In this document: positions 32,265-38,119 of the stretch, piece after piece
How positions within the stretch are numbered: position 1 is the first letter of the stretch
How the letters are laid out: every line of letters begins with the position of its first letter
Assembly: GCF_021405525.1 (NCBI RefSeq)
Contig: NZ_JAGQAG010000001.1
Coordinates: 558,001 to 622,000, forward strand
Length of the DNA stretch: 64,000 nucleotides
Reading direction: 5' to 3'
Origin: Ruegeria pomeroyi
Lineage (GTDB): Bacteria; Pseudomonadota; Alphaproteobacteria; Rhodobacterales; Rhodobacteraceae
Position numbers and translations under genes: made by a program
Notes under the pieces: generated by a model
Seen by the model: the letters and a program-made list of their open reading frames with translations, nothing else
The model's database searches: none
What the model was told of the DNA's origin: nothing

Positions 32265-33310
32265 TGGATCGGACACCGGGCCTGGCCATGCGCTACCCCT
32301 GGGACGAGCCGCCTGCCCATGGCTCTGCGATCGAGGTGGCCGAGGGCGTCTTATGGATGCGCCTGCCGCTGCCGATGAAGCTCGATCACGTCAATGTCTA
32401 TGCGCTGGATGATGGCGATGGCTGGACGGTGATTGACACCGGTTTTTCGTCAAAAAAGACGCGCGGCATCTGGCAGGCGCTGATCGACGGGCCGCTGGCT
32501 GGCAAGCCGGTGCGCCGGGTGGTCGTGACCCATCACCACCCCGACCATATGGGCAATGCAGGCTGGTTCCAGTCCGAACTGGGTGCCGAGCTGGTCACCA
32601 CGCGCACCGCATGGTTGTTCTCGCGCATGCTGACGCTGGACGTGCAGGAGACCTGGCCCGAGGAAACGCTCGACTATTACCGCAGCGCGGGCATGGCGCC
32701 CGAAATCCTGGCAAAGCGTATGGCCGAGCGGCCGTTCAACTTTGCCGATATGGTCTATCCGATGCCGCTGGGGTTCACCCGGATCAAGCAGGGCGACGTG
32801 TTCCGCATGGGCGGGCGCGACTGGGACGTGCATATGGGTAACGGCCACGCGCCCGAACATGCGACCTTCTGGAGCCGCGATGACAATCTGGTCATCACCG
32901 GCGACCAGATCCTCAGCTCGATCAGCCCCAATATCGGCGTCTATGCGACCGAACCGATGGCCGACCCGCTGGCCGACTGGCTGGAAACCTGTGAACGGCT
33001 GGCACCGTTGGCACGTCCCGAGCATCTGGCGCTGGGCGGGCACAAGCTGCCCTTTACCGGGTTGCCGATCCGGATGCGGCAACTGATCGACAACCATCAT
33101 GGCGCGCTGAAGCGTCTGCGCGACCATCTCGATACGCCAAAAGCGGCCTCGGACTGTTTTGCGCCGCTGTTCAAGCGCACCATTGGCGAGGGCGAGTACG
33201 GGCTGGCGCTGGTTGAAGCGGTTGCCCATGTCAACCATCTCTATCATACCGGAGAGGTGACACGGACCCGGCGCGCGGATGGCGCCTGGCTCTATCAGCG
33301 GAAAGGATGA
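32264..33310 (+). CDS. MBL-fold metallo-hydrolase
   Basis: A 348-aa metallo-beta-lactamase fold hydrolase. The metal motif HxHxDH is present as THHHPDHMG (His90-His95). Downstream are GNGHAPEH and LGGHKLPF, supplying the further ligands. The ATG overlaps the acyl-CoA dehydrogenase stop; a GTG one codon earlier is possible. The family covers thioesterases and lactonases, so with this neighbour an acyl-thioester hydrolase is plausible. DUF6173 follows by 3 bp. Confidence 0.9.
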   Translation: MDRTPGLAMRYPWDEPPAHGSAIEVAEGVLWMRLPLPMKLDHVNVYALDDGDGWTVIDTGFSSKKTRGIWQALIDGPLAGKPVRRVVVTHHHPDHMGNAGWFQSELGAELVTTRTAWLFSRMLTLDVQETWPEETLDYYRSAGMAPEILAKRMAERPFNFADMVYPMPLGFTRIKQGDVFRMGGRDWDVHMGNGHAPEHATFWSRDDNLVITGDQILSSISPNIGVYATEPMADPLADWLETCERLAPLARPEHLALGGHKLPFTGLPIRMRQLIDNHHGALKRLRDHLDTPKAASDCFAPLFKRTIGEGEYGLALVEAVAHVNHLYHTGEVTRTRRADGAWLYQRKG

Positions 33311-33313
33311 GCC

Positions 33314-33769
33314 ATGGAAAACAAGATCGAGACCTCGGCCGAATATGCCGAGGCGGCGGTGTTGCCGCCCCGGTGCCACGAGGTGCATGCCGATCCTGAC
33401 AGCCCCGCCCGTATGACCGAGGTGCCCGCACCGCTGCAGGAACCGGTCCAGAACAAAAGCCCGGCGCAATGGGCCTATGAACGTCTGATCCTCTATATCC
33501 GCAACTTCGAGGAGCAGCTCGACGCCAGCCAGGAAGTGGCGATGGGCTTTGTCGGCGGCGATGCCGGGGTGTTGCGGATCGAGGGGATCGGTTATTTCGA
33601 CCCCGATATCGTCACCTTTTACGGGGCCGATGGCACCGGCGCGCGGACCCAGCTGGTCCAGCATGTGAGCCAGTTGAACGTGATGTTGCGCGCCATGCCG
33701 GTGGCGACCGAGGATCGTCCGGCCCAGCGCATCGGTTTCCGGCTGGCCGCCGATCTGGAAGCGGACTAG
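33314..33769 (+). CDS. DUF6173 family protein
   Basis: A 151-aa soluble protein with a flexible acidic N-terminus and a conserved C-terminal half (QWAYERLILYIRNFEEQL and VGGDAGVLRIEGIGYFDP). It is seen in alphaproteobacteria as DUF6173, with no known activity. It lies 3 bp after the MBL hydrolase gene and probably shares its transcript. Confidence 0.85.
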   Translation: MENKIETSAEYAEAAVLPPRCHEVHADPDSPARMTEVPAPLQEPVQNKSPAQWAYERLILYIRNFEEQLDASQEVAMGFVGGDAGVLRIEGIGYFDPDIVTFYGADGTGARTQLVQHVSQLNVMLRAMPVATEDRPAQRIGFRLAADLEAD

Positions 33770-33839
33770 GCGCTTTCGGCTTGCCTTGGCAGCGGTAGGG
33801 CCGTTCAATACCTGCATTGTTTGCAGGAGATAGCCGCCC

Positions 33840-35684
33840 GTGTCGCATTTTACCCATGTCCGCAATGCCTGGTCCGGTTCCTGGGCTCGGCGACGGGTCT
33901 TTGTTCCGCTCTATGCCGCACTGCGCCTGCTGGTTCTGGCGCTGATCGCTCCGGCGCTGGCTGGGCTGATCAATCTGGCCGTCGGCCTGTCGGACCAATC
34001 GGCGCTGACCGATCAGGATATCGCGCGTTTTGTCCTGTCTCCGCTGGGCTTTGCCGCGACGCTTGCGGTGCTGAGCATCCTTCTGGTTGCCGAGGTGCTG
34101 AGCTTTGCGGTGATGGCCGCGACCCTGCGCAGCGGTGCCAGCAATGTCTGGCACGCGGGCAGTTCCGGCCTGACGCTGGTGCTGCGGCACCTGCGGCCGC
34201 TGCTGGCCTTTGCCGCGCTCTTTGTTCTGCGGGTGCTGGTACTGGCGTTGCCCTTTGTCGCGCTTGCCGGGCTGATCGCCTGGTGGGTGCTGGGTGATTA
34301 CGACATCAACTATTACCTGACCTTCCGCCCGCCCTCGTTCCGGCTGGCGATGGCGGCGATCGCGGTTCTGGTTCTGATCCTGGCCTGGCTCTTGATGCTG
34401 CGGCTCTCGGGCTGGGCGCTGGCGCTGCATCTGGTCATCTTCGAAGGGATCCGGCCGGCTCAGGCCTTTGCCGAAAGCACCCGCCGCATGGGCACCCGCC
34501 GCACCGCGCTCAAGATCGAACTGGTGCTCTGGCTGCTGACCCGGTTGGCGCTGGCCGCCGTTCTGGGCGCTTTGGCCAGTGTGGCGCTGGCGCTGGTCCC
34601 GATCCCGGCCGAGGGCGCGTTGCGTCGGGCGTTGGTACTGGTGGTGCTGGTGATGGGGCTCTGGTCGCTGGCCGGGCTGGTGCTGGCCGCGACTGCGCTG
34701 GGGGCGCTGACCAAGCTACTGGATCGTTTCTACGACGGAGCCGCGGCGGCGGCCCCCCTGCCGCCCGCGGATCCGCAGGGCCTGCGCGCGCGGCTCATTG
34801 GAGCGGCGATACTGGCCGCTCTTGCGCTGGGCGTTGGCATGTGGGTCAGCGACGGGGTGCTGACCCAACTGACGGCTGCGGACGAGGTGACCGTGATTGG
34901 CCATCGCGGCGCCGCCGGGGCGCGGCCCGAGAACACCATGGCCTCGGTCGTCAAAGCGATCGAGGACGGTGCCGACTGGGTCGAGATCGACGTGCAGGAG
35001 ACCGCCGATGGCGAGGTGGTCGTCATGCATGACAGCGATTTCATGAAGCTTTCCGGCGTGCCGACCAAGATCTGGGACGCCACCATGCAGGATATCGAGG
35101 AAATCGATATCGGCAGCTGGTTTTCTCCGGACTACGCGGCCGAGCGGGCACCTACCTTGCGCGCGGTTCTGGAGACCGCCAAGGGTAAATCCAACGTCCT
35201 GATCGAACTGAAATATTATGGCCATGACGTGGATCTGGAGAACCGGGTGATTGCCCTGGTTGAGGAATTCGGCATGCAGGACCAGATCGCCACCATGTCG
35301 CTGAAATACCCGGCGGTGCAAAAGATGCGTGCCTTGCGCCCCGATTGGCGCACCGGTGTTCTGGCGGCGACGGCAGTGGGCAATCTGGCCGGGCTCGAGG
35401 GTGACTTCGTTGCCGTCAGCAGTGCCAGCCTGCGCCCGTCGCTGCTGCGCGCCGCCCATGCGGCGGGCAAGGATGTCTATGTCTGGACGGTGAACGAGCC
35501 GCTGTTGATGTCCAAGATGATCTCTCTGGGGGTCGACGGCTTGATCACCGACGAACCCGCCATGGCGCGCGAGGTTCTGGCGGTGCGCGCCACGCTGAAC
35601 CCCGCTGAACGGCTGCTCTTGTGGCTGACCCAGGAAATGGGGTGGGAGCTGAATGCAAAGGCCTATCGCGATGACAGCCCGTAA
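33840..35684 (+). CDS. Membrane-bound glycerophosphodiester phosphodiesterase
   Basis: A 614-aa protein in two parts. Residues 1 to about 345 hold several hydrophobic helices, a glycerophosphodiesterase-associated membrane domain. Residues about 350-600 form a GDPD barrel with VIGHRGAAGARPENT (His355), WVEIDVQETADGEVVVMHD (metal ligands) and a C-terminal GLITDEP. GDPDs release glycerol-3-phosphate from deacylated phospholipids. The start is GTG behind an AGGAGA site. Its end overlaps the next gene, which encodes a phospholipase-A2-like secreted protein, so a two-step lipid breakdown is likely. Confidence 0.92.
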   Translation: MSHFTHVRNAWSGSWARRRVFVPLYAALRLLVLALIAPALAGLINLAVGLSDQSALTDQDIARFVLSPLGFAATLAVLSILLVAEVLSFAVMAATLRSGASNVWHAGSSGLTLVLRHLRPLLAFAALFVLRVLVLALPFVALAGLIAWWVLGDYDINYYLTFRPPSFRLAMAAIAVLVLILAWLLMLRLSGWALALHLVIFEGIRPAQAFAESTRRMGTRRTALKIELVLWLLTRLALAAVLGALASVALALVPIPAEGALRRALVLVVLVMGLWSLAGLVLAATALGALTKLLDRFYDGAAAAAPLPPADPQGLRARLIGAAILAALALGVGMWVSDGVLTQLTAADEVTVIGHRGAAGARPENTMASVVKAIEDGADWVEIDVQETADGEVVVMHDSDFMKLSGVPTKIWDATMQDIEEIDIGSWFSPDYAAERAPTLRAVLETAKGKSNVLIELKYYGHDVDLENRVIALVEEFGMQDQIATMSLKYPAVQKMRALRPDWRTGVLAATAVGNLAGLEGDFVAVSSASLRPSLLRAAHAAGKDVYVWTVNEPLLMSKMISLGVDGLITDEPAMAREVLAVRATLNPAERLLLWLTQEMGWELNAKAYRDDSP

Positions 35685-36231
35685 CCTGTTGATCCTGTGC
35701 CTTTGCGTGGGCAGTCCGGTCGCGGCGCAGGATCTGAACCGGATGCTCGAACTGCCGGCGCACCGCGCGCTGATGGCGGCGCAACAGGCCGCGCCGCTGG
35801 CACCGTTCACCACTGATGGCTGTTCGGGCGGGCTCAGCGCCGGTTGGACCATGGTTGCCGACACGTTTCCCGATTTTGCTGCCGCGCAGGGCAATCTTCC
35901 GCCTTGGGAGGCCTGCTGTGTCATTCATGACCGCGCTTATCACGATGCAGGCGGGTCAGAAACTGCCGAGGACAGCTATGCCGCGCGTTATGAGGCCGAC
36001 CGGGCCTTGCAAAGCTGCGTGCGCGACACCGGCGAAAGCCATCTGGCGGATCTGGCGACACGTTATGACACCACGCCCGAAACGGTCCGCGCCGCCTATG
36101 GCACCATTGCTGACGCGATGTATCTGGCAGTCCGCTTTGGTGGTGGCCCCTGCTCTGGCCTGCCATGGCGCTGGGGCTATGGGTATGCCCATTGCACCCC
36201 CTTTGACTCAACCGCGCCTGCGCGCGATTGA
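35653..36231 (+). CDS. Secreted phospholipase A2-like protein
   Basis: A 192-aa exported protein with a signal peptide (hydrophobic core to about residue 25, ending VAAQ). The mature part has a Ca-loop-like FTTDGCSGG (Asp55-Cys57) and the His-Asp signature WEACCVIHDRAYHDAGG (Cys88, Cys89, His92, Asp93), as in phospholipase A2 active sites. The mature protein has six cysteines, enough for three disulfides. Activity is an inference from motif; I know of no characterised bacterial member this close. The ATG at 35653 has a GGGAG ribosome site inside the upstream GDPD gene; ATG at 35671 is an alternative. The 32-bp overlap supports a functional pair. Confidence 0.83.
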   Translation: MQRPIAMTARNLLILCLCVGSPVAAQDLNRMLELPAHRALMAAQQAAPLAPFTTDGCSGGLSAGWTMVADTFPDFAAAQGNLPPWEACCVIHDRAYHDAGGSETAEDSYAARYEADRALQSCVRDTGESHLADLATRYDTTPETVRAAYGTIADAMYLAVRFGGGPCSGLPWRWGYGYAHCTPFDSTAPARD

Positions 36232-36293
36232 CGTCGTGACAGAGCGGCGAGAATCCGCTATCCAACCGGAAAAACGCGAATAGGATGATTGCT

Positions 36294-36428
36294 ATGGCTG
36301 ACTTCAAACCCGGTTCGATGGACATCACCACTCAGACCAAGACCTTTGATGGGTTCATCAAGGCGATGATCTGGGTCTGTGTCGTGATCTTCTTCGTCCT
36401 GCTGTTCATGGCCGTGTTTACCGCCTGA
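36294..36428 (+). CDS. aa3-type cytochrome c oxidase subunit IV
   Basis: A 44-aa single-span protein: a short hydrophilic front (MADFKPGSMDITTQTKTFDG) and one membrane helix of about 20 residues ending FMAVFTA. This is the small, non-catalytic subunit IV of alphaproteobacterial aa3 cytochrome c oxidases. An AGGA ribosome site lies 8 bases before the ATG at 36294; an in-frame ATG at 36285 is less likely. It stands apart from the main oxidase genes, which is usual in this group. Confidence 0.9.
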   Translation: MADFKPGSMDITTQTKTFDGFIKAMIWVCVVIFFVLLFMAVFTA

Positions 36429-36447
36429 TCCTGCGAGGGGCCTTCCC

Positions 36448-37065
36448 GTGAAGCTGATTTTTCTTGCCGGCGCGTTGGCGCTGAGCCTGATGGCTTGTAC
36501 CCGCCAGAGCGCGCCGCAGGCCGATGATGCGACCGTCGCTGCCGTTCGCTATCGCGATCCGGGGCCGGCAAAGCTGACGCTTTATACGATGGTCAACAAC
36601 CGGTCGGGCGCAGGGGCGCATACCTCGCTGATGATCAATGCCAGTGAGCGGGTGATCTTTGACCCGGCGGGCTCGTTCTGGGCCGATATCGTGCCGGAAC
36701 AGAACGATGTTCTGTTCGGCATCACGCCCGCGGTCGAGACTGCCTATCGGGGCTCGCATGCGCGAGAGACGCATCACGTGGTGGTGCAAGAATTGGAAGT
36801 ATCCCCGGAACAGGCAGAGGCGGCCTATCGGCTGGCGCGTACCATGGGGCCGGTGCCGGGTGCCTATTGTGCCAATTATACTGCGCGCCTGTTGCAGCAG
36901 ATTCCGGGGTTCGGTGACATCAAGGTCACGTTCCAGCCGACCAAATTGGCCGATCAGTTCGGTTCGCGCCCCGGTGCGGTGACGAACAAGTATTACGAGC
37001 AGGACGACGCCGACCTGCAAAAGGGTCTTGCCGCCAACAACGCCAAGCTGAACCAGCCGGGCTGA
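36448..37065 (+). CDS. Lipoprotein resembling a permuted papain-like hydrolase
   Basis: A 205-aa probable lipoprotein: signal peptide with lipobox LMAC, acylated Cys17. The mature sequence has GAGAHTSLMIN (His58) early and GAYCANYTARLLQQ (Cys141) late. That His-first, Cys-last order is seen in circularly permuted NlpC/P60-like amidases and acyltransferases. The family is not established by name; the fold call is from motif order only. It lies 19 bp after the oxidase subunit gene. Confidence 0.8.
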   Translation: MKLIFLAGALALSLMACTRQSAPQADDATVAAVRYRDPGPAKLTLYTMVNNRSGAGAHTSLMINASERVIFDPAGSFWADIVPEQNDVLFGITPAVETAYRGSHARETHHVVVQELEVSPEQAEAAYRLARTMGPVPGAYCANYTARLLQQIPGFGDIKVTFQPTKLADQFGSRPGAVTNKYYEQDDADLQKGLAANNAKLNQPG

Positions 37066-37073
37066 GCCTCGTC

Positions 37074-37406
37074 TCAGCCCAGCAGGTAGAGCAGGCCGTA
37101 AAGCGTGCCTGCGCCTGAAAAGATCGCGACCAGCACGTTTTTCGACCAGTATCCGGCGGCAAGCGCCACTGTCGCCGCGCTCATCCGGGGCACATCGGGC
37201 TGACCGCCGGTGGCCTGCGGCCAGATCACCAAAGGCGCGATCAGGGCGGGTAGGATGGCCACGGCGGTATAGCGCAGATGCCGCAGCAGCCAGTCGGGCA
37301 GCGGACGGTCGCCGACCAGCCCGATAAAGACAAAACGCAGACCAAAGCTGCCAAAGGCAAGCCCGACGATGACGATCCACATGGTTGATGGGTCGATCTC
37401 GGTCAT
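37074..37406 (-). CDS. azlD: AzlD-family branched-chain amino acid exporter subunit
   Basis: A 110-aa membrane protein with about four hydrophobic segments, the small partner of AzlC in branched-chain amino acid (and analogue) export. It opens TMWIVIVGLAFGSFGLRF, and LPALIAPLVIWP lies in the middle. It overlaps azlC by 4 bp, as is usual for the pair. Confidence 0.9.
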   Translation of the reverse strand: MTEIDPSTMWIVIVGLAFGSFGLRFVFIGLVGDRPLPDWLLRHLRYTAVAILPALIAPLVIWPQATGGQPDVPRMSAATVALAAGYWSKNVLVAIFSGAGTLYGLLYLLG

Positions 37407-38119
37407 GTGTTCTTGTTCCTGCGGGCGAGCATCACTTCGGCCTGCGCACCGGCCATCATTCCGGTGGTGCCCGCGATCAGCAGGCCCAGGTTGAACGGCA
37501 CACCGGCCGTCAGCAGCGCGGTCACGATTGCCACCAGTGCCGCAATCACATGCGGCAGGGTGCGCAGCATCGGTCCGATCATTGCCAGAAAGGTGATCGG
37601 CAGGGCGAAATCCAGCGCCCAGCTTTCGGGAATGCGGGTGCCCAACACCGCACCCAGATAGGTCGCCAGGTACCAGGCGGGTGCCAGCGGAGTGACGGTG
37701 CCAAAGAAATAGGCCATCCGCTGCGGCACGGTCAGGTCCGGCTCGGTCTCGAACCGCACCACGGACAAGGCATAGGACTGATCCACCGTGAAATAGGCGG
37801 CCACCGCCCGCTGCCAGAGCGGCGCGGCGCCCAGATAGGGCGTCAGCGCGGCGGAGTACATCGCCACACGCAGGTTTACGGCCAGCGCTGACAAGAGCAC
37901 GATCAGCGTCGGCGTGTCATCGAGCAAGAGTTGCAGCGCGGTGAACTGCGCAGCACCGGCAAAAACGGTGGCGGTAAAGGTCATCACCTGCACCAGGTTC
38001 AGCCCGGCCTCGGTCGCAAACACGCCGAACAGGGTGCCAAAAGGGGCCGCCACCATGATGAAGGGGGCGCCGTCGCGAAAACCCTTCCAGTAGACGGATT
38101 TGGATGTGGTGAAGGACAT
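37403..38119 (-). CDS. azlC: AzlC-family branched-chain amino acid exporter subunit
   Basis: A 238-aa membrane protein with about six helices: FRDGAPFIMVAAPFGTLFG near the N-terminus and the family motif GAAQFTALQLL near residue 60. With AzlD it forms a small two-part exporter. It is divergent from fdhD across 49 bp, leaving little room for two promoters; nothing else is recognised in that gap. Confidence 0.92.
   Translation of the reverse strand: MSFTTSKSVYWKGFRDGAPFIMVAAPFGTLFGVFATEAGLNLVQVMTFTATVFAGAAQFTALQLLLDDTPTLIVLLSALAVNLRVAMYSAALTPYLGAAPLWQRAVAAYFTVDQSYALSVVRFETEPDLTVPQRMAYFFGTVTPLAPAWYLATYLGAVLGTRIPESWALDFALPITFLAMIGPMLRTLPHVIAALVAIVTALLTAGVPFNLGLLIAGTTGMMAGAQAEVMLARRNKNT

Follow-up and report, generated by a model that had tools for sequence, protein, structure and literature searches.

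A conserved roseobacter-type gene pair encoding an exported phospholipase A2-like protein and a membrane-anchored glycerophosphodiester phosphodiesterase suggests a small envelope pathway for phospholipid breakdown

A 64,000-nucleotide stretch of Ruegeria pomeroyi (contig NZ_JAGQAG010000001.1, positions 558,001 to 622,000; genome of 4.51 Mb), hereafter the window, contains two overlapping genes which encode a membrane-anchored glycerophosphodiester phosphodiesterase (GDPD) and an exported protein of 192 amino acids (aa) resembling phospholipase A2 (PLA2), whose closest named relatives are from Ruegeria. Our analysis suggests that they represent a conserved roseobacter-type pair and, together, a small pathway for phospholipid breakdown in the cell envelope. 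The assignment of the upstream gene product as a GDPD is solid in terms of domain matches and active-site residues, the coupling of the PLA2-like gene to it in this bacterial family is well supported, and remote homology makes the small protein a probable PLA2. That phospholipids are attacked by the two proteins one after the other, through one or other of the two routes considered below, is deemed likely.

Information on the degradation of membrane phospholipids by marine bacteria is called almost nonexistent in the available part of one study (PMC10132767). The unit described here supplies two concrete candidate enzymes for phospholipid breakdown, with predicted catalytic residues, and ties a protein family that has no Pfam name to the PLA2s, while Dinoroseobacter shibae, which carries the pair on plasmid pDSHI05, offers a model host in which the question of marine phospholipid degradation becomes directly testable. 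The preliminary description of this DNA knew of no bacterial pair of this sort, and we likewise found no published description of a PLA2-like/GDPD pair in the open-licence PMC literature. Both open reading frames (ORFs), as well as the DGCSGG and CCVIHD motifs and the six cysteines of the mature protein on which that description relied, are present as claimed. The layout of the two genes is as follows.

33840-35684, + strand: membrane-GDPD gene, 614 aa, GTG start, with a multi-transmembrane (multi-TM) N-terminal domain and a C-terminal GDPD domain
33915-34721, + strand: GPDPase_memb domain, aa 26-294 (PF10110, 31.3 bits; cut-off 29.6)
34902-35561, + strand: GDPD domain, aa 355-574 (PF03009, 140.6 bits; cut-off 23.6)
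35653-36231, + strand: PLA2-like gene, 192 aa, with a Sec-type signal peptide recognized by eye at about aa 1-25
35653-35684, + strand: overlap of the GDPD 3' end with the PLA2-like start, 32 nucleotides if the first ATG is used

Co-occurrence and adjacency of the two genes

The PLA2-like gene was detected in 32 of 295 genomes (294 genera) of the taxonomic family and in 5/5 genomes of the genus, while the membrane GDPD was detected in 31 of the 295 at E <= 1e-40. Both genes are present in 28 genomes, the PLA2-like gene only in four (G019, G034, G075, and G105), the GDPD only in three (G068, G083, and G130), and neither in 260, so that the two co-occur far beyond chance (Fisher p = 1.2e-31, with genomes treated as independent). 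The GDPD count is strict, since it used the above threshold and scored at most four candidates per genome listed, and a diverged GDPD could be missed.

In 26 of 30 loci, taken one per genome, the GDPD gene lies directly upstream on the same strand, with the matched parts -29 to +151 nucleotides apart; the gene order in relatives, which the preliminary description had proposed to survey, is thus not random. The four non-adjacent loci are those of G034, G019, G214, and G240, and the remaining two of the 32 genomes, G075 and G105, have no GDPD. The two genes of G240 are on separate contigs. G214 has two PLA2-like copies in one genome (L035 and L092) and was counted as non-adjacent through L035; a PLA2-like copy on the contig of its GDPD is found about 1 kb behind the GDPD, with one membrane-protein-like ORF between them. 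G075 (locus L117) has kept the neighbourhood of the window and the PLA2-like gene while its GDPD gene is gone, which makes it a natural comparison genome. A first contig scan had returned seven relatives, from five Ruegeria, one Rhodobacteraceae bacterium, and one gammaproteobacterial metagenome-assembled genome, and the GDPD stands in front in six of these seven loci, the last one (L008) being without it. The distance matrices of the PLA2-like and GDPD proteins are also correlated (Mantel r 0.66, 0/5000 permutations) across 27 of the 28 two-gene genomes, G220 being left out as it had no locus and L035 being used for G214.

The pair is found on plasmids as well. Six plasmid records carry a relative, and of the four examined, three from Rhodobacterales and one from Pseudoalteromonas, the GDPD precedes the PLA2-like gene on the Rhodobacterales plasmids pDSHI05 (DSHI_RS21120/RS21115), pLA6_002, and pSC52_1 but not on the Pseudoalteromonas plasmid. 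ORF clustering of 29 neighbourhoods together with 20 kb of the window showed that nine pair-bearing neighbourhoods (L061, L062, L063, L126-L130, and L132), three of them on plasmids, had no cluster in common with the window apart from the pair and at most two more clusters among themselves; L062 and L131 were counted once, as they are apparently one record (each has 180,236 bases). The two genes have thus remained linked in changing surroundings.

Relationship of the small protein to phospholipases A2

Neither Pfam nor NCBIfam gave a match to the 192-aa protein up to E 1, and members of its family are annotated as "hypothetical protein" in the records examined. A search of the phylum with an alignment profile gave matches in 15 of 398 genomes: five belong to the same family, a sixth, with a strong match, to a different family of the class, and the other nine matched weakly, through a shorter form. 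Phage records gave no match. When a profile of the short form was run on 185 genomes from one class of the phylum, 15 matched, and six additional long proteins of the DGCSGG type were among the finds. The short relatives are ORFs of 100-159 aa, one of them on a Pseudoalteromonas xiamenensis record; in six of them (L044, L096, and L100-L103), lipobox-like signal peptides (e.g., LSAC and VASC) can be seen by eye, and these proteins may be envelope lipoproteins.

Two alignments were used to assess conservation. The 36 aligned DGCSGG-type sequences (leaving out L002, whose protein is that of L009, and L038-L043, which were found later) are invariant at D55-G60, W65, C88, C89, H92, D93, Y96, R112, D116, C122, V160, R161, G163, G164, C167, W172-G175, G177, and C181. 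The wider set of 57 comprises 34 of these 36, six further long proteins, and 17 short relatives, at 37-81% identity to the window protein (left out were L002, L003, L006, L038-L043, L053-L064, and L095), and it retains D55, C57, C88, C89, H92, D93, Y96, R112, D116, C122, V160, R161, G163, G164, R173, W174, and G177 in 57/57 sequences, while C167 and C181 are not invariant in it. Asp55, His92, and Asp93, singled out beforehand as the residues that homologues should keep, are hence kept throughout, and the invariant positions include the residues required in a PLA2, namely, the Ca-loop Asp, the His-Asp pair, the Tyr three residues on, and the Asp of the second helix.

The relationship to known PLA2s is remote and is bridged by the short relatives. 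Their profile aligns with that of the 36 DGCSGG-type sequences at an hhalign probability of 99.9 (E 6.6e-31), which joins the two forms. When short relatives were scanned singly against PF09056 (prokaryotic PLA2), the group XIV secreted PLA2 family, 5 of 10 matched under a limit of E <= 1 and, in a set of 18, four did so under a limit of E <= 0.1, the best match (E 7.7e-4, 20.5 bits) being below the cut-off of 29.4, and the short relative L103 passes the cut-off of DUF1353 (PF07087; 23.3 versus 22.5 bits). The window protein itself matches neither PF09056 nor DUF1353, and a PF09056 scan of 21 related genomes, including its own, found none. Searched against 177,635 PDB sequences, a profile of 18 short relatives gave two matches up to E 10, both weak and both to PLA2s, 8k1w (E 0.048) and 4aup (E 0.14). 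A first profile of short relatives had returned three PDB rows, the same two PLA2s (E 0.39 and 2) and a serine protease (E 2.6). The alignments to 8k1w and 4aup pair DGCS with DGCS, the Cys three residues before the His with the same Cys, and HD with HD, and that to 4aup also pairs R-x-x-x-D with R-x-x-x-D; through the profile, D55, H92, and D93 of the window protein correspond to PLA2 determinants in 8k1w and D55, H92, D93, and D116 to those in 4aup. The motifs map as follows.

35815-35832, + strand: DGCSGG (aa 55-60), which falls where group XIV PLA2s have their Ca loop when the short-relative profile is aligned to 8k1w and 4aup; Asp55 is a predicted Ca ligand
35914-35931, + strand: CCVIHD (aa 88-93), with the predicted catalytic His92 and with Asp93; aligns with the His-Asp of 8k1w and 4aup
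35998-36000, + strand: Asp116, the predicted dyad Asp, in an R-x-x-x-D motif with Arg112; invariant in 57/57 sequences and aligned with 4aup as RKRIDDNFK / RkeaDealk

Because of these alignments, His92 and Asp116 are probably the catalytic dyad, and Asp55 and Asp93 are probably the Ca ligands. The preliminary description had named His92 and Asp93 as the active site, and while its His92 stands, Asp93 as the partner does not, since the residue matched to the group XIV dyad Asp is the invariant Asp116 and Asp93 is more likely a Ca ligand. These roles follow those of the corresponding residues in the Streptomyces enzyme, in part as given in the paper on TtaP (see below). AlphaFold models of the full protein (from the 36-row alignment) and of residues 49-192 (from the 57-row alignment), with predicted local distance difference test scores of 85.5 and 82.4, respectively, and so of fair quality, both place His92 and Asp116 on successive long helices. 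Overall, the PLA2 kinship that had been proposed for the small protein is supported, in this remote form.

Compared with the group XIV secreted PLA2s (Streptomyces violaceoruber PLA2 [SvPLA2] and Tuber borchii TbSP1), the window protein is likewise apparently exported and cysteine-bearing and shares, via the short relatives, the DGC of the Ca loop, the Cys three residues before the His, HD, and, with 4aup, R-x-x-x-D. It differs from them in the absence of a direct match, in the loop after DGC, in the extra cysteines 167 and 181 (the others outside the signal peptide being 57, 88, 89, and 122), in its GDPD partner, and in a C-terminal GGxPCxxLPWRWGYG block, of which GG, R173, W174, and G177 are common to the short relatives. 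A further protein to compare is TtaP, a DUF1353 protein with assayed PLA2 activity, which is regarded by its authors as a distant group XIV homologue (PMC11525133, available part). The same portion of that paper describes a His/Asp dyad with an adjacent Asp, as proposed here, the lack of a signal sequence and of the four disulfide cysteines of SvPLA2 and TbSP1, and a predicted structure that departs from known PLA2s outside the three-helix core. Unlike TtaP, the window protein appears to be exported, contains six cysteines, and has no DUF1353 match.

A few other hits were obtained. A kinesin-like chain, the sole PDB row for the window protein (E 0.16), was taken as chance, and an NCBIfam scan of the short relatives gave one MerP match only (E 0.046). 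Foldseek against BFVD yielded no match at E <= 0.001; two densovirus structural proteins are among its first ten rows (E 0.82 and 1.1). As a PLA2 domain is present in densovirus capsids, these rows are a lead, but no more than that, because it is not apparent which range was aligned.

The membrane GDPD and the proposed route of breakdown

The upstream protein has the two-domain architecture of the GPDPase_memb-GDPD proteins (PF10110 and PF03009), passing both cut-offs, and is here coupled to a PLA2-like gene; to our knowledge, no function has been assigned to the GPDPase_memb domain. Its H355, R356, E382, D384, and H397, the residues of the HRG, ExD, and HD motifs, are invariant in 27/27 homologues, and its best PDB chain is the GDPD 2pz0 (E 8.5e-28, 100.5 bits). 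Its own genome encodes two GDPDs, this one and one elsewhere. Because the N terminus is Arg-rich ahead of seven Kyte-Doolittle peaks in aa 30-337 and no Lys or Arg follows the last peak, a positive-inside reading suggests an N-in/C-out topology with the GDPD domain in the periplasm.

We infer all catalytic steps of the scheme from what was observed, namely, the sequences, their invariance, the co-occurrence and adjacency of the genes, and the persistence of the pair across neighbourhoods. The small protein would be exported to the periplasm, in view of its signal peptide, and would work as a Ca-dependent group XIV-like PLA2 in which Asp55 and Asp93 hold Ca and His92-Asp116 activates water; release of the sn-2 acyl chain, as expected from remote homology and invariance, would then leave a lysophospholipid. 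The multi-TM protein, given its predicted topology, would keep its GDPD domain on the periplasmic side of the inner membrane, where it would remove the head group, most likely directly from the 1-acyl-lysophospholipid, as a lysophospholipase D. The products would be lysophosphatidic acid and the head-group alcohol, so the lysolipid would not accumulate. In the earlier proposal, the PLA2 makes a lysophospholipid and the GDPD acts on fully deacylated head groups. The substrate of a classical GDPD is a diester that has lost all its acyl chains, which the PLA2 alone does not give, and since the PLA2 yields a lysolipid, either a second deacylase or direct cleavage of the lysolipid is needed. The lysophospholipase D route is favoured because the unit has no second lipase and its GDPD is membrane-bound. 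This version of an envelope two-gene unit for phospholipid breakdown is put forward tentatively. With greater reserve, one may picture the linked genes as a relay on the periplasmic side of the inner membrane, in which an exported PLA2 from a subfamily without a name would hand lysophospholipid on to the multi-TM GDPD acting as a lysophospholipase D; roseobacters could carry such a unit from chromosome to plasmid and back.

Mammals are thought to run a similar relay of PLA2 and GDE4/GDE7, and a Pyrococcus GDPD reportedly has lysophospholipase D activity, going by the title of a paper (PMC4926365). A bacterial precedent is LpgD, the lysophosphatidylglycerol phospholipase D of Staphylococcus aureus, for which we know of no PLA2 partner gene. 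According to the available part of its description (PMC10404611), LpgD is a membrane-tethered GDPD with a canonical active site which acts on a lysolipid as a lysophospholipase D. It resembles the window GDPD in its tether and active site, whereas its single N-terminal helix differs from the multi-TM domain found here.

Several results weigh against the PLA2-lysophospholipase D relay. The link to PLA2s passes through the short relatives, and each match is individually weak. Neither the window protein nor the 36-row profile found a PLA2 among the PDB sequences, where the profile found no relative at all, and a mixed profile returned four PDB rows with no PLA2 among them. In Pfam, the best that single DGCSGG-type members achieved was E 0.0063 with PLA2G12 and 0.064-0.068 with other PLA2 models, each from one member. 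Foldseek searches of the PDB with both structure models gave no match at E <= 0.001, and no PLA2 is among the best 50 of 111 and the best 50 of 192 rows; we do not regard this as a refutation, since the predicted structure of TtaP likewise departs from known PLA2s outside the three-helix core, but a PLA2 fold of the small protein is putative. By sequence, ordinary GDPDs (2pz0) are closer to the GDPD domain than is the lysoplasmalogenase 7ymq (43.6 bits), and the domain reaches 97 of 264 bits with the PRK09454 model versus 38.3 of 450 with that of LpgD, not reaching the cut-off of the LpgD equivalog model. The GDPD topology and the signal peptide of the PLA2-like protein do not come from dedicated predictors. 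Finally, an adjacent GDPD is lacking in 6 of the 32 genomes with the PLA2-like gene and at the DGCSGG-type loci L040 and L041 (one genus, same family) and L042, and no GDPD was found within about 1.5 kb of the short relatives examined or of ten other relatives (L104-L109, L044, L096, L098, and L103); therefore, the PLA2-like protein can work without the GDPD.

A rather unlikely alternative, the second of the two routes and the one seen in the preliminary description, is scavenging, in which the PLA2 and another lysophospholipase would deacylate the lipid fully and the GDPD would yield glycerol-3-phosphate and the head-group alcohol, both to be imported. The closeness of the GDPD domain to ordinary GDPDs is in line with it, as are the annotated ugpB-A-E genes near the pair on pSC52_1 and the sugar-type ATP-binding cassette importer near the pair on pLA6_002, one permease of which is labelled UgpA and whose permeases cluster with those of pSC52_1; moreover, the available part of PMC10132767 reports head-group release by Phaeobacter sp. 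MED193 given phosphatidylcholine or phosphatidylethanolamine. However, the second deacylase that it requires is absent from the unit, a query with the UgpB of pSC52_1 had no match in the own genome of the pair (a single query, of which an empty result is not proof of absence), and a Pho box scan of the 64 kb gave 5 matches with 2-3 mismatches versus 3.6 expected by chance, none of them in 33-37 kb. With no Pho box near the pair, the connection to phosphate-poor sea water drawn in the preliminary description found no support.

It is unlikely that the small protein, while of PLA2 descent, has another role, such as lipid binding or hydrolysis of other esters, with the GDPD acting on a substrate of its own. 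Such a role would agree with the lack of a significant fold match, with the restriction of the alignable part to the Ca-loop/His-Asp core and, for 4aup, R-x-x-x-D, and with the loop after DGC, which reads GGLSxxW instead of FPDG. Against this, all predicted catalytic determinants of a PLA2 are invariant in the 57 sequences despite identities down to 37%, and TtaP, equally a distant homologue of group XIV, is an assayed PLA2. Very unlikely is an adjacency that was simply inherited and means nothing for function: in part of the set, the whole neighbourhood is the same as that in the window, and the Mantel correlation is also expected from shared descent alone, but the nine pair-bearing neighbourhoods without any other shared cluster, plasmids included, argue otherwise. 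The least credible reading is a lipase effector aimed at other bacteria or at a host, to which the GDPD would be an accessory, for although bacterial PLA2s can be effectors, a polymorphic-toxin review (PMC3482391) is said to contain both phospholipase A2 and glycerophosphodiester phosphodiesterase terms, and a VapC toxin gene (more likely for plasmid maintenance) lies directly upstream of the pair on pDSHI05, the signal peptide is plain by eye, and the annotated genes around the three plasmid copies include none for a secretion system.

Gene boundaries and the upstream region

The PLA2-like gene had been described as starting inside the GDPD gene, and the 32-nucleotide overlap is real, given the first ATG as the start; with the in-frame ATG at 35671 (Met7), it would shrink to 14 nucleotides. 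In L002-L004 and L009, the GDPD and PLA2-like matches overlap by the same amount as in the window.

Upstream of the pair, the following block was noted by eye on relatives.

33780-33827, + strand: promoter-like CTTGCC-18-TTCAAT, followed by a small hairpin (CCTGCATTGTTTGCAGG) that extends into the GDPD ribosome-binding site

The promoter-like element recurs, by eye, among close relatives, while a sigma-70 scan called no site in 33000-37500. The hairpin (33811-33827) precedes the GDPD start, and its 3' arm reaches the ribosome-binding site. Its arms differ yet pair by eye in L002, L003, and L004, but not in L005 and L006, and translational control of the GDPD gene by this hairpin is possible.

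Downstream of the pair, 36448-37065 encodes a 205-aa lipoprotein-like protein with no Pfam match and no NCBIfam match over the cut-off, relatives of which are present in all five window-type neighbourhoods tested (L005, L117, L121, L123, and L124).

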